Below the pieces are notes generated by a model. That model did no database searches. It saw only the letters and a list, made by a program, of their open reading frames with translations, and was not told where the DNA came from. A stretch of DNA of 64,000 nucleotides from NCBI RefSeq assembly GCF_009725755.1, contig NZ_WNIJ01000001.1, positions 868,001 through 932,000 on the forward strand, in the 5' to 3' direction. Origin of the DNA: Bombella sp. ESL0385. GTDB taxonomy: Bacteria > Pseudomonadota > Alphaproteobacteria > Acetobacterales > Acetobacteraceae. Shown here one piece after another: positions 46,608 to 53,793 of the stretch (position 1 is its first letter; each line of letters starts with the position of its first letter). The translations under genes were made by a program, and so were the position numbers.

Positions 46608-47939
46608 ATGGTCCCCCGCTATTCGCGCCCACAGATGACAGCCATTTGGTCCCCTATAAACCGGTATCGCATCTGGTTTGAGATTGAGGCCTTGGCGTGT
46701 GAGGCTTTGGCGCGCCGGGGGGAGATTCCGGCAGAGGCAGCTAAAGTTATTCGCACAAAAGGCGATGCCGCGATGGCCGCTTTTAGTGAGGCTGATGTAG
46801 CGCGGATTGATGAGATTGAGGCAGAAACACGCCATGATGTGATTGCCTTCCTCACATGGTTGGCGGAGAAGGTTGGGCCGGAGAGCCGTTTTGTCCATAT
46901 GGGGATGACATCTTCGGATGTGTTGGACACATGTTTGGCGGTGCAACTAACACAAGCAGCGGATATTTTGTTGGAGGATATGGATATTCTCCTTGCCGCC
47001 CTGAAGAAGCGCGCTTTTGAGCATAAACACACCGTTACGATTGGTCGTAGCCACGGTATCCATGCCGAGCCGATGAGCTTTGGGCAAAAATTGGCGGGCC
47101 ATTATGCTGAGTTCGCCCGTAATCGTCGCCGTCTCGAAGTTGCGCGGGAGGAGATTGCCGTATGTGCTATCTCTGGTGCGGTAGGCACATATGCGCATAT
47201 CGACCCAGAGGTGGAAGAATATGTCGCCTCTCATCTGGGGCTAAAGGCTGAGTTTGTATCCACACAGGTGATTCCACGGGACCGCCACGCCGCTTTTTTC
47301 TGCGCTTTGGGTGTGATTGCTAGCGGGATTGAGCGGCTTGCTACAGAGGTACGTCATCTTCAACGCTCCGAAGTGCGAGAAGCGGAGGAGTTCTTCCATG
47401 CTGGGCAGAAAGGCAGCTCCGCCATGCCGCATAAGCGTAACCCTGTTTTGTCCGAGAATCTCACGGGCCTAGCACGGTTGGTGCGCTCTTATGTCACCCC
47501 AGCACTGGAGGATGTGGCTCTGTGGCATGAGCGCGACATTAGCCATTCTTCTGTAGAGCGGAATATCTGCCCCGATGGGACGATTGTGTTGGATTTCGCC
47601 CTTGCGCGCCTTTCTGGCATGATAGAAAAATTGGTCGTCTATCCAGAACAAATGCTGGCTAATGTTGAGAGTTTGGGCGGGGTTGTTCATTCTGGTGAAG
47701 TCCTGTTGGTACTGGCGCGTGCTGGTATCTCGCGTGAGGATGCGTATCGGATTGTTCAACGTGCTGCTATGGCGACTTGGACAAAATTAGGCACATCGGA
47801 GGGCCGTACCTTCCGTGAAAACCTAGAGGCAGACCCAGAAGTTGCAAAACATGTTGAGCCTGCTGTGTTGGATGATGCGCTAGACCCGGCGCGCCATTTG
47901 CGTGCGGTGGACCATATTTTTAAGCGCGTATTTGGTTAA
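46608..47939 (+). CDS. purB: Adenylosuccinate lyase
   Basis: Splits SAICAR to AICAR and adenylosuccinate to AMP in purine synthesis. It has 443 residues. The family signature GSSAMPHKRNP is present, along with MGMTSSDVLDTCLAVQL, TIGRSHGIHAEPMSFGQK with a catalytic His, and RDISHSSVER. The start is ATG 46608 with AGCAGGAG upstream. purC lies 114 bp further on, across a 7-bp hairpin at 47958-47974 that lacks a T-run, so the genes may be co-transcribed or only loosely linked. Confidence 0.97.
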   Translation: MVPRYSRPQMTAIWSPINRYRIWFEIEALACEALARRGEIPAEAAKVIRTKGDAAMAAFSEADVARIDEIEAETRHDVIAFLTWLAEKVGPESRFVHMGMTSSDVLDTCLAVQLTQAADILLEDMDILLAALKKRAFEHKHTVTIGRSHGIHAEPMSFGQKLAGHYAEFARNRRRLEVAREEIAVCAISGAVGTYAHIDPEVEEYVASHLGLKAEFVSTQVIPRDRHAAFFCALGVIASGIERLATEVRHLQRSEVREAEEFFHAGQKGSSAMPHKRNPVLSENLTGLARLVRSYVTPALEDVALWHERDISHSSVERNICPDGTIVLDFALARLSGMIEKLVVYPEQMLANVESLGGVVHSGEVLLVLARAGISREDAYRIVQRAAMATWTKLGTSEGRTFRENLEADPEVAKHVEPAVLDDALDPARHLRAVDHIFKRVFG

Positions 47940-47957
47940 AGGGACTTTATGAGGCAG

Positions 47958-47974
47958 AGCCACAATTTGTGGCT
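47958..47974 (+). other. Short hairpin between purB and purC
   Basis: AGCCACA and TGTGGCT form a perfect 7-bp stem with a 3-nt loop, 18 bp past the purB stop. No T-run follows. It could stabilise a 3' end, or be a weak attenuator. Confidence 0.4.
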
Positions 47975-48053
47975 TAGGCTCGTATAAGGGTATCTCTTGT
48001 GATATAGGGGCCGAAAAGGCTTTGATAGGCCCACTAGTTAAGGATGAAATGGC

Positions 48054-48818
48054 ATGGCTCGCCGGCGTCAGATTTATGAAGGAAAAGCCAAGATTATCTT
48101 TGAAGGGCCTGAGCCGGGAACGGTGGTTCAGTATTTCAAAGATGATGCAACGGCAGGTAATGGGGCAAAGAGTGGCGTCATTACCGGTAAAGGCGTCCTG
48201 AATAATCGCATTAGCGAATATTTGATGCTGCGTCTTGGTGAGATGGGTATTCCTACGCATTTCATCCGTAGCTTAAATATGCGGGAGCAGCTTGTGCGGG
48301 AGGTTGAGATTATCCCGTTGGAAGTTGTGGTACGTAATGTAGTGGCTGGTTCGCTTTCCAAGCGGTTTGGCTTGCCGGAGGGGGAGCGTCTGCCTCGCAC
48401 TTTGGTGGAATATTATTATAAGAATGATGCGCTGAATGACCCTCTCATCTCGGAGGAGCATATTGTTACCTTTGGGTGGGCTCATCCGCAGGAGCTGGAG
48501 GAGATTCAAAGTTTAGCGTTGCGGGTGAATGATTTTCTCTGCGGATTGTTTACCGGGGTTGGCATTACGCTGGTAGATTTTAAGTTGGAGTTTGGGCGTC
48601 TTTGGCAAGATGACGAGATGCGCATTGTACTGGCTGATGAGATTTCGCCAGATAATTGTCGTCTTTGGGATAGCCAAACACAGGAAAAAATGGATAAAGA
48701 CCGTTTCCGCCGGGATATGGGCGGTGTTGGTGAAGCTTATCAAGAGGTGGCACGCCGCCTTGGCATCTTGCCAGAAAATGGGCAAGTCGAGACTGTATCT
48801 ACGGAGGGTATGCGGTGA
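48054..48818 (+). CDS. purC: Phosphoribosylaminoimidazole-succinocarboxamide synthase
   Basis: Joins aspartate to CAIR, giving SAICAR, the PurB substrate. It has 254 residues. The N-terminal [20 protein letters not shown], the signature [19 protein letters not shown]-type segment ([16 protein letters not shown]) and [10 protein letters not shown] are canonical. [13 protein letters not shown] is the Mg/ATP motif. The start is ATG 48054 with AAGGA upstream. Its stop overlaps the purS GTG by 4 bp. Confidence 0.97.
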
Positions 48819-49057
48819 AAGTCAGAGTTTTTGTATATCTGAAAAATGGCGTGTTAGACCCACAGGGTAAAGCGGTTGAGCATGCTCTGCATTCTCTCGG
48901 TTTTGAGGAAGCCTCCGATGTGCGCATTAGCCGTGTGGTTGATTTGCACGTTAAGGCTAATGATGCCGCTGCGGCAAAAGAGCAAGGCGAGAAAATGGCG
49001 CGTGTTTTGTTAGCTAATGAGGTTATTGAGGATTTTCGTGTGGAGGTAAGTGCGTGA
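48815..49057 (+). CDS. purS: FGAM synthase subunit PurS
   Basis: Small bridging subunit that joins PurQ and short-type PurL in phosphoribosylformylglycinamidine synthase. It has 80 residues, starting [20 protein letters not shown] and containing [11 protein letters not shown] and an [12 protein letters not shown] end, all typical. The start is GTG 48815, overlapping purC (GTGA). Its own stop overlaps the following gene in the same way. That next gene is not purQ but an exported Rap1a/Tai-like protein, which separates it from its partner. Confidence 0.95.
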
Positions 49058-49791
49058 GAGCTATCCGTAACATAGGGTTTGCATTGGCCCTTGGCCTTGC
49101 CTCTTTGTGTGTGGGGCATGCCGCTCATGCTCAGCGTGTCTCTACCGTATCGGGGGAGGAGCTAGCGCGGAGCTGTGATAAGCAGTCTCGTTTTGCTGCG
49201 TGTAGTGCCTATCTTGCGGGCATTACGGATGGGGCTTCTTGGTCTCAAAGCTTTGGGCTTTTGCTTGGCTCTGCGCCGTCTCCTGCGTTTTGTATCCCGG
49301 CGCAAGTTAAGGGGGTGCAGATTCGGTCTCTCGTTGTAGGGTGGCTTGCTGGTCATAGCACAGCTCTGGGGCAGCCAGCAGGGCGGGGTGTTTTCCAAGC
49401 CTTGCATGATAACTATACATGCCCCTCTGGCGTAGCGAGTTTATATGCGGAGCGGCGGGCGCAAGCACAGCGTATTTCATCTCTGCCGGGTAAGGGGTTG
49501 GTGGCTCTGTGCAGTCATAATGCTGGCTTGCCAGCCTGTAATGGCTATCTCGCAGGGACAATGGATAGTGAGATTTGGTCACGCAATTTCTCCACTATTG
49601 AGGGAGCGCATAACCCGATGGCATTTTGTGTCCCTAAAGAGATGAGAATGTCTCAGCTGCGCGCCTTGATTGTCGGTTGGTATGCTGGTCATGAAGATGC
49701 GTTGAACGAGCCAGCAGGACGCGGTGTTTATCGGGCATTGCATGATAACTACCCTTGCTATGCGGGTACGCCGTCAGGGGATAACAGATGA
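49054..49791 (+). CDS. Exported tandem Rap1a/Tai-like double-domain protein inside pur operon
   Basis: A 245-residue protein with a Sec signal peptide (cleavage near AHA|Q, residues 24-27) and two copies of a domain of about 85 residues. Cysteines lie at 41, 50, 80, 123 and again at 153, 162, 192, 235; spacing is 9, 30, 43 in both. Repeated motifs are C-x-x-YLAG, FC(I/V)P, VGW-x-AGH and PAGRGV-x-x-ALHDNY-x-C. This resembles the Rap1a/Tai4 family, first described as periplasmic immunity proteins against type VI secretion amidases, though most members are uncharacterised. GTG 49054 overlaps purS by 4 bp and the stop overlaps purQ by 4 bp, so it is translated with FGAM synthase. No effector gene is nearby. 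Function in this setting is unknown. Confidence 0.85.
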
Positions 49792-50486
49792 AAATAGGCA
49801 TTGTCGTTTTTCCCGGCACGAATCGCGAGCGGGATATGGCACAAGCATTTCAGGTGGCTTCTGGTAAAGCTCCTCAAATGTTGTGGCATCAGCAGGATAA
49901 TGTTGATGGGTTCGATTTAATTGTCCTGCCGGGCGGCTTTAGCTTTGGCGATTATCTGCGTAGTGGGGCTATGGCAGCACATTCACCTATTATGCGGGCT
50001 GTTCGTCAGTTTGCAGAGAAAGGGGGATATGTTCTGGGGGTCTGTAATGGCTTCCAGCTCCTTACGGAGGCGCAGATGCTCCCCGGGGCGTTATTGCGTA
50101 ATGCGGGCATGCGCTTTTTGTCGCAGGATTGTCACCTTAAGGTAGAAGGGCGCGATAGCATCTTTACCGCTGGTTGGGAGCGTGGGGCCGTATTTCGCGC
50201 GCCTTTAGCCCATGGGGATGGGAATTATACTGCCGCCCCAGAGGTCTTGGACCAGTTGGAGGGTGAGGGGCGTGTGGCGTTCCGTTATTGTGATGCGGCA
50301 GGTCAGGTGAAGCATCATGATGCACATGTTAATATGAATGGCAGTGCCCGATCGATCGCGGGTGTGTTGAGTGAGAATCGCCGTGTTTGTGGGCTTATGC
50401 CTCACCCTGAAAATCTAACAGAAGACATATTGGGCGGCACAGATGGTTTGCCCCTCTTTAATGGGATTTTGGAGGGATTAGGCTAA
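49788..50486 (+). CDS. purQ: FGAM synthase glutaminase subunit PurQ
   Basis: Supplies ammonia from glutamine to PurL. It has 232 residues. The class I amidotransferase nucleophile is Cys86 in [10 protein letters not shown]; His-Glu follow in [11 protein letters not shown] near the C-terminus. The N-terminus [15 protein letters not shown] and [18 protein letters not shown] are characteristic of PurQ. The start is ATG 49788, overlapping the Rap1a-like gene (ATGA); the stop overlaps purL by one base (TAATG). Confidence 0.97.
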
Positions 50487-52726
50487 TGGTAACCGCTGTT
50501 GTTAATCTCGAATTGGCGCGTTCTTTTGGCCTCAAAGATGATGAGTATGAGAAGGTACTCACCATTATGGGGCGCACGCCGAGTCTGACAGAGCTTGGTA
50601 TTTTCTCGGTGATGTGGTCGGAGCATTGTTCCTATAAATCATCGCGTCTGCATCTGAAGACTTTGCCTACAAAGGCCCCCTGGGTGATTCATGGCCCCGG
50701 TGAAAATGCTGGGGTGATTGATATTGGGGATGGCTTGGCCGCTGTTTTTAAGATGGAGAGCCATAACCACCCCTCTTTCATCGAGCCATATCAAGGGGCA
50801 GCGACAGGTGTTGGGGGCATCCTGCGTGATGTTTTCACAATGGGTGCGCGCCCTATTGCGAACTTAAATGCCCTACGCTTTGGCGACCCGTCTCATAAAG
50901 ACACAAAACGCGTTGTTGATGGTGTTGTGCGCGGTATTGGCGGTTATGGTAACTGCATGGGAGTACCAACCGTTGGGGGCGAGGTAAACTTCCATCATTC
51001 CTATAATTGCAACCCGCTTGTTAATGCCATGACCGTTGGCTTAGCACGGCAGGATCGTATCTTCCTTTCTGCTGCGGCGGGGGTGGGGAATCCGGTTGTT
51101 TATGTAGGGTCTAAAACAGGACGTGATGGCATCCATGGGGCGACGATGTCCTCCGCGGAGTTCGATTCCGAATCGAGCTCAAAAAGGCCGACTGTTCAAG
51201 TTGGGGACCCGTTCACAGAGAAATTATTGCTCGAAGCTTGTTTAGAACTCATGGCAACGGATGCTGTGATTTCCATTCAGGATATGGGTGCCGCAGGGCT
51301 GACATCATCTGCTGTGGAGATGGCTAGCAAAGGTGGTGTCGGGATTGACCTAGATCTAGACCATGTGCCGCAGCGCGAAACCCATATGCAGGCTTACGAG
51401 ATGATGCTCTCTGAAAGTCAGGAACGCATGCTCATGGTGCTGCGTCCTGACCGGACAGAAGTGGCCCGTAAGATTTTTGAGAAATGGGAGTTGGATTTTG
51501 CAATTGTCGGCACGCTGACAGATAGCGGACGTATTACGGTACGTCATAAAGGTACTGTAGAAGCCGATATTCCCTTGGGCCCATTGGCTGATGAAGCTCC
51601 AATTTACGATCGCCCGACAGTTCCGTATGAGCGTCAACCTGCCCTTACCCCTCCAGCGGCTCCTTGTGGGGTAGAGGCTGCTTTGTCCCGTTTGCTTTCC
51701 AGCGGGAATGGGGCCTCGCGCGCTTGGATTTGGAATCAATATGATAGCGGCGTAGGTGGCCAGACAGTAAAACGCCCCGGTGGGGCTGATGCTGCGATTG
51801 TACGGGTCGAGGGTACGAATCGTGGCCTCGCGATGACAACCGATTGTACCCCGCGTTACGGGCAGGCGGACCCTTATATTGGCGGTGCGCAAGCTGTTGT
51901 AGAGGTCTGGCGGAATATAACCGCGACAGGCGCGCGACCTTTGGCGATGACGGATAATCTAAACTTCGCTAGCCCAGAAAATCCATACATCATGGCGCAG
52001 TTTGTCGAGGCTGTAAAAGGCATTGGCGATGCTGGGCGCGCGTTGGACTTCCCTGTCGTTAGTGGGAATGTCTCTCTTTATAACGAGACGCGTGGTGATG
52101 ATGGGAGCGTTACAGCCATCCAACCTGCCCCTGTGATTGGTGGCGTTGGTGTGCTGGAGGATGTACATAAAGCCGTTGGTCTTGCCTTCCCTGACGCAGG
52201 AGAGATTCTCCTCATTGGGGAGACGATTGGCACACTCGGGCAGTCTTTATGGTTGAAGGAAATCCTCAACCGTGAGGAGGGCGCACCTCCTGCGATTAAT
52301 TTTGAAGCTGAGCGGCGGAATGGTGATTTCGTGCGTGGATTGATTCAAGATGAGCTGGTCACGGCCTGTCATGATGTTTCAGATGGTGGGCTTTTGCTCG
52401 CTGTGGCTGAGATGGCTATGGCAGGTGGGATCGGTTGCAGCCTTGCGGATGCTCCTGCGGATATGCCTGCTCATGCTTATTGGTTTGGGGAAGACCAAGC
52501 GCGTTATGTTGTGGTGACGCAGCAGGCCGATTCTGTGATAAAGGCAGCGCAGGGAAAAGGTGTTCCCGTGCAGCGTCTGGGCCATGTAGGCGGTGATACG
52601 CTGAAAATTGGCACAGAGGGGGCTCTTACGGTTGGGAAGATGCAGGCACTGCATGCGTCCTTCTTCCCCCGTTTTATGGGGCAGGAAGATGCACCGCTTG
52701 TGCATCTGGATGAACAGCTATCCTGA
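50486..52726 (+). CDS. purL: FGAM synthase large subunit PurL (short type)
   Basis: ATP-dependent synthase that converts FGAR to FGAM using ammonia from PurQ. At 746 residues it is the short form requiring separate PurS and PurQ. Motifs include [71 protein letters not shown] and the C-terminal [19 protein letters not shown]. The start is ATG 50486. bolA follows after 28 bp. Confidence 0.97.
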
Positions 52727-53490: not shown

Positions 53491-53793
53491 ATGAAAATAT
53501 CCCGTACAAAGGGGGCTATTTTTGGCCTTCTGGGCTTAGCTGGTGTAACGATGGCTCCAGCTCATGCTGAGCGTGTTTTAACAGAGCATGAAGCGGGTAA
53601 ATTAACATTTGATGCCCTCATTGCGCCTCCTTCAGCATTCCAGCATGTTGCTCGTCATTCATGGCGGGGGCATGTTTTGGGGAGCCGCGTTGCAGCCACC
53701 CATCGTCATCATGCTGTAGCAGTGCGGAATGTGTCCTATTATAGTCATACTGCTGCAAGGCACGGGCGGGTAACTCATCGTCACCGTGGGTGA
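53491..53793 (+). CDS. Small exported basic His/Arg-rich protein, unknown function
   Basis: Not recognised. It has 100 residues with a signal peptide MKISRTKGAIFGLLGLAGVT ending APAHA, cleavage near residue 26. The mature part begins ERVLTEHEAGKLTFDALIA and becomes rich in His, Arg and Val (ATHRHHAVAVRN, ARHGRVTHRHRG), with about ten histidines. The signal peptide makes a periplasmic or secreted location likely. The start is ATG 53491 with AGAAGGGG upstream. A terminator follows at once, so it is a single-gene unit. Confidence 0.7.
   Translation: MKISRTKGAIFGLLGLAGVTMAPAHAERVLTEHEAGKLTFDALIAPPSAFQHVARHSWRGHVLGSRVAATHRHHAVAVRNVSYYSHTAARHGRVTHRHRG

Follow-up and report, generated by a model that had tools for sequence, protein, structure and literature searches.

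A small secreted Rap1a-domain protein inside the purine operon of bee-associated acetic acid bacteria looks old and conserved

One of the closest described counterparts of the protein studied here is Rap1a of Serratia marcescens (also called Tai4a; PDB 3zfi and 4bi8), which serves as an immunity protein of the type VI secretion system (T6SS), has a known effector, and is reported to contain a single disulfide. Another is Tai4 of Agrobacterium tumefaciens (PDB 6ije and 6ijf), a partner of Tae4. Canonical Tai4 proteins (from Salmonella and Enterobacter, and Serratia Rap2a) are likewise helical, dimeric inhibitors of Tae4 amidases, but they have another fold according to PMC3852654, and they are not among the matches listed for our protein. 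The Rap1a fold is described there as an inhibitor that blocks the active site of papain-like amidases, enzymes cleaving bonds between D-Glu and meso-diaminopimelic acid (PMC3852654). Here, we analyzed 64,000 nucleotides of Bombella sp. ESL0385 (family Acetobacteraceae, class Alphaproteobacteria; contig NZ_WNIJ01000001.1, positions 868,001 to 932,000; the whole stretch is referred to as the window), in which a gene for a predicted exported protein of 245 residues (49054..49791, + strand) lies between purS and purQ, a position that we call the slot. Compared with Serratia Rap1a, the slot protein has four conserved cysteines per domain and two domains per chain, no effector was found for it, and it is encoded in a pur operon. 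The Rap1a family and its fold are already known; the small secreted Rap1a protein inside the purine operon of these bee-associated acetic acid bacteria looks old and conserved.

The Rap1a family profile (PF18602) matches the slot protein in two stretches (E = 2.2e-32, 111.9 bits, cut-off 27.7). In a profile search of the 1.9 Mb genome, each half cleared the cut-off alone, with 58.3 and 57.8 bits, and no Rap1a match besides the slot gene was found. Domain 1 (49150..49422, + strand; C41, C50, C80, and C123) and domain 2 (49489..49758, + strand, the half scoring 57.8 bits; C153, C162, C192, and C235) are 45% identical, and their cysteines follow the same spacing of 9, 30, and 43. The chain begins with what is, by eye, a predicted Sec-type signal peptide (residues 1–26, 49054..49131, + strand), with predicted cleavage after AHA at residue 26. 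A structure model of domain 1, with a predicted local distance difference test (pLDDT) score of 81, shows the helical Rap1a fold and matches both Agrobacterium Tai4 and Serratia Rap1a. An earlier note on this DNA had described an exported, tandem Rap1a/Tai-like protein with identical cysteine spacing in its halves, and these results bear out the export signal, the tandem arrangement, and, by profile and fold, the family. Calling the protein Tai4 demands caution, given that canonical Tai4 and Rap1a (also known as Tai4a) differ in fold (PMC3852654).

All four cysteines are invariant in the 30 slot rows of the alignment, and they sit at places matching the Rap1a C3–C4 disulfide; Agrobacterium Tai4 has a serine at the C2 position. 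The interface aspartate of the Rap1a homodimer, which forms through helix 2, is retained in the profile alignment. The two disulfides per domain proposed earlier are thus plausible in view of the invariant cysteines, whereas crystal precedent exists for the C3–C4 bond only. We considered the four cysteines as a hallmark of the pur-slot form and rejected this, since 53 of 67 non-slot rows from the class also have them; among the remaining 14, 11 alignments fall short of all four positions and three show another residue. In other searches, viral contigs gave no further alignment rows, the PDB yielded no match at E up to 10 with the slot sequence alone (the profile search did match), NCBIfam held no matching family at E up to 1, and a single weak match in a defence-system library (E = 0.012, 12.7 bits) was not used.

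PF18602 was searched in 200 genomes of the family, 152 of which had a match (PurS was found in 184), and in 289 genomes of the class, of which 78 had one. Slot content was tabulated for 80 purS loci from 77 genera, a sample that leaves out further species of these genera and 17 genera for which no purS position was given. Rap1a occupies the slot in 31 loci (29 single-domain and two tandem, both from the window's genus), a small protein with two hydrophobic stretches in 21 (one of them, L108, assigned by eye), and purS and purQ lie within 40 bp of each other in 22; three loci have other gaps, and in three purQ was not seen and no Rap1a was present. The earlier note had called an exported protein at this place unexpected and had named this tabulation as a check. 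Far from an oddity of one operon, the gene proved to be a widespread slot occupant in the family, and its presence in relatives led us to reject a local insertion or artefact.

Rap1a and pur genes appear to be linked within the family in particular. Among the Rap1a loci returned by the family PF18602 search, 26 of 30 adjoin purS, as do 7 of 10 from further genera (the exceptions being G006, G024, and G026). Outside the family, none of 66 Rap1a loci, drawn from about 108 listed matches (hand count) and inspected by tblastn with flanks of ~1.5–2 kb (shorter at contig ends), had a pur gene, and the linkage therefore looks peculiar to the Acetobacteraceae. On a tree of PurS plus PurQ (76 rows, midpoint root, good support for 19 of 73 inner branches, bootstrap not quite converged), the Rap1a slot label changes 8 times, compared with a mean of 23.9 after shuffling. 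Because Rap1a fills the slot in all 17 rows of the window's group (a group supported at only 86/24) and appears again throughout the remainder of the tree, the simplest reading, which is no proof, is that the family ancestor already had it and that losses followed. Where the slot is taken by the small protein or is empty, 27 of 43 genomes have PF18602 at another place (15/21 and 12/22, respectively), and the protein therefore has a use apart from pur.

The alternative occupant is a membrane protein of 69–97 residues whose label changes once on the tree (support 91/62). Examples are L041:573-839, L051:542-787, L104:533-760, and L115:540-767, with 17 more loci, and none of the four scanned had a Pfam family above cut-off. 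The slot can hold two frames, since in L065 a 104-residue coiled-coil-like frame (418-732) precedes the small membrane protein. In L022, where the slot holds the small membrane protein, a non-slot Rap1a gene (1483-1875, − strand) lies ~600 bp upstream of purL.

The window's gene is embedded in a tightly packed pur operon on the + strand, whose gene identities are backed by a Pfam scan. purC (SAICAR synthetase, 48054..48818; PF01259, E = 4.7e-83) is followed by purS (48815..49057; PF02700, E = 1.8e-28, and an NCBIfam equivalog above cut-off), the slot gene, purQ (49788..50486; NCBIfam equivalog, E = 1.7e-90), and purL (50486..52726; Pfam AIRS, AIRS_C, and linker domains), the last three pur genes encoding, in order, a subunit, the glutaminase subunit, and the large subunit of FGAM synthase. 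Every neighboring pair overlaps by 1 or 4 bp. As previously described, the slot gene, which starts with GTG, shares 4 bp with purS (GTGA, 49054..49057) and 4 bp with purQ (ATGA, 49788..49791). With start codons chosen mechanically, the 4-bp overlap with purS recurs in 25 of 31 slot genes and that with purQ in 16 of the 29 having purQ in view; 14 slot genes have both. A consensus scan of 47800 to 50600, which is a weak test, gave no match resembling a sigma-70 site on the + strand. A predicted export signal is also common among the slot proteins, as 30 of 32, the window's included, passed a crude signal-peptide check based on hydropathy and a cleavage motif; the failures, L075 and L105, may have wrong starts. 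Further downstream, a 100-codon open reading frame (53491-53793, + strand) after a glutaredoxin-like gene has, by eye, an export-like leader and a histidine-rich tail.

In the 80 loci, the tandem form at the slot was seen in the window's genus only. It is present in all five nearest named loci (four Bombella records and "Parasaccharibacter apium", 65–87% identical) and in all four genomes of the genus in the family search, which may overlap with those five. For three tandem proteins, the first domains group together (support 98/95), as do the second domains (98/98), and L114, the single-domain protein from the nearest genus, branches together with these groups at a support of 99/98. This places the in-frame duplication near the base of the window's genus. 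A tandem arrangement arose elsewhere too, since L161, from an alphaproteobacterium of another family, has two Rap1a matches in one 213-codon frame (around 1878-2516).

Selection was assessed from the ratio of nonsynonymous to synonymous substitution rates (dN/dS) in 12 pairs, of which six of the eight within the genus were usable (the window paired with L036 and with L038 gave no dS for the slot gene). Within the genus, the slot gene is under purifying selection, with dN/dS of 0.065–0.096, about twice the 0.030–0.047 of purQ in the same pairs; the four cross-genus pairs (0.14–0.63 at 52–79% protein identity) were not relied on. Distances of Rap1a correlate with those of PurQ (r = 0.38, a value reached in 0 of 2000 permutations) and PurS (0.28, reached in 1 of 2000), which fits a Rap1a that is mostly inherited vertically and changes fast.

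Despite its name, the protein occurs largely apart from the weapon that Rap1a immunity proteins oppose. Tae4 (PF14113) was detected in 7 of 200 family genomes, including one of 31 slot genomes, and in 2 of 289 class genomes, counts in which divergent Tae4 genes could have been missed. The window's genome has no PF14113 match, and no cognate amidase gene was found next to the slot gene, whose neighbors are pur genes, in line with the earlier remark that no effector gene is near. Rap1a was not seen beside Tae4 in the two loci read (L186 and L187) of eight returned. L187 encodes, at 1330-2001 (− strand), a Tae4-domain protein whose leader resembles a signal peptide; no immunity gene was seen next to it, and the genome also has a slot Rap1a. 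The T6SS component TssC (PF05943) occurs in 100 of 200 family genomes, in 10 of 31 slot genomes, and in none of the four genomes of the window's genus. Since at most 7 of the 152 family genomes with PF18602 have Tae4, the name "immunity protein" likely misleads for most. Because the slot gene looks old, is conserved, and occurs without the weapon of its name, its product is more probably a resident component of the cell envelope than an immunity protein.

These results favor a periplasmic protein of the Rap1a (Tai4a) fold that has a housekeeping role, is old and inherited mainly vertically, owes its cotranslated expression to the pur operon, and perhaps restrains a resident CHAP-domain peptidoglycan endopeptidase, a reading to which, taken as a whole, we give a probability of roughly one in three. 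What the gene does, as distinct from where it sits and how it is conserved, we infer. The housekeeping part, one of two options raised in the earlier note, is held fairly firmly in view of the slot kept across the family, the purifying selection, and the rarity of Tae4. Each domain would have the Rap1a C3–C4 disulfide and a second C1–C2 bond; single-domain relatives probably form homodimers through helix 2, like crystallized Rap1a and Agrobacterium Tai4, and the tandem protein would then be such a homodimer fused into one chain, a pseudo-dimer. Least certainly, the slot protein might plug the active site of a resident papain-like peptidoglycan amidase, the most likely partner being one of two exported CHAP-domain proteins of the window's genome (by eye, the leader of one resembles a signal peptide and that of the other a lipoprotein leader), an arrangement that would couple the hydrolysis of the wall to pur expression and thereby to growth. 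Gluconobacter oxydans is proposed to build 1–3 cross-links from dipeptide stems that an endopeptidase would supply, a role for which two CHAP proteins were candidates (PMC10727944). We loosely hold a resident CHAP enzyme to be the best candidate partner, since all 23 hand-picked slot genomes searched have CHAP, mostly in two copies (NlpC/P60 is absent from 22), and the window's own genome has two.

Several observations weigh against this reading. All 16 genomes searched among the 48 family genomes without a PF18602 match also have CHAP; the pairing is therefore not specific, and co-occurrence was dropped as support for a partnership. Those 48 genomes also mean that the family at large can do without Rap1a. 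Single CHAP transposon mutants of Gluconobacter retain 1–3 cross-links (PMC10727944), and the effector-touching Gln84 and Arg119 of Rap1a are conserved in neither domain (alignment with hand count, compared with PMC3852654). The correlation with PurQ is only 0.38, compared with 0.69 between PurS and PurQ, and the full-length tandem model that would bear on the pseudo-dimer reached a pLDDT of only 38.7 from a six-row alignment and was not used.

The lack of Gln84 and Arg119 also tells against a constitutive guard, that is, an orphan immunity protein expressed with a housekeeping operon against Tae4-like amidases injected by competitors. This is a tentative possibility, to which the fold shared with two proven immunity proteins lends some weight, and a cell without its own T6SS may still be attacked by others, TssC being present in 10 of the 31 slot genomes. 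The unusual Acetobacteraceae wall has moreover been proposed to aid competitive survival (PMC10727944). However, the crystallized immunity proteins have one reported disulfide (PMC3852654, PMC6277958), compared with four invariant cysteines in the slot form, and no effector is adjacent. One operon slot kept across genera, with purifying selection within the genus, also argues against a guard. Immunity genes usually lie in variable arrays, which we counted against this explanation. Somewhat more doubtful is a periplasmic protein that has the fold in common but does something else, such as an HdeA-like acid-stress chaperone: the fold gives a hint, but PF06411 matched neither the genome nor the slot protein in a Pfam scan, a profile comparison with HdeA gave 0.9%, and kinship with HdeA was rejected for want of sequence support. 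A role in cis, in which a membrane-targeted nascent chain holds pur mRNA at the inner membrane or the purS–purQ spacing sets their ratio, is very improbable. Both Rap1a and the unrelated two-helix occupant are membrane-targeted, and the overlapping starts and stops suggest translational coupling; on the other hand, purS and purQ are adjacent in 22 of 80 loci, conservation is at the protein level, and the occurrence of PF18602 elsewhere in genomes lacking it at the slot indicates a use of its own.

Among the papers listed in literature searches, judged mostly by title, none was found to describe Rap1a in the pur slot, how widely it occurs there, the small membrane protein in its place, the tandem fusion, or the dissociation from Tae4, although this does not prove that no such account has been published; the main text of a Gluconobacter knockout study, whose gene lists are in supplements, does not name purQ (PMC8602642). 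One could speculate, as a long shot, that the original task of the Rap1a fold is to curb, as a housekeeping factor, the cell's own papain-like peptidoglycan endopeptidases (for acetic acid bacteria, the enzyme making dipeptide stems for 1–3 cross-links), with T6SS immunity proteins as a two-cysteine offshoot recruited from a four-cysteine stock and the homodimer fused into one chain in the window's genus. The case also shows that, throughout much of a family, a gene for an exported protein can reside between two subunit genes in the operon of a cytosolic enzyme complex. An operon-locked Rap1a in acetic acid bacteria amenable to laboratory work opens the native function of this fold to testing and bears on wall remodelling.
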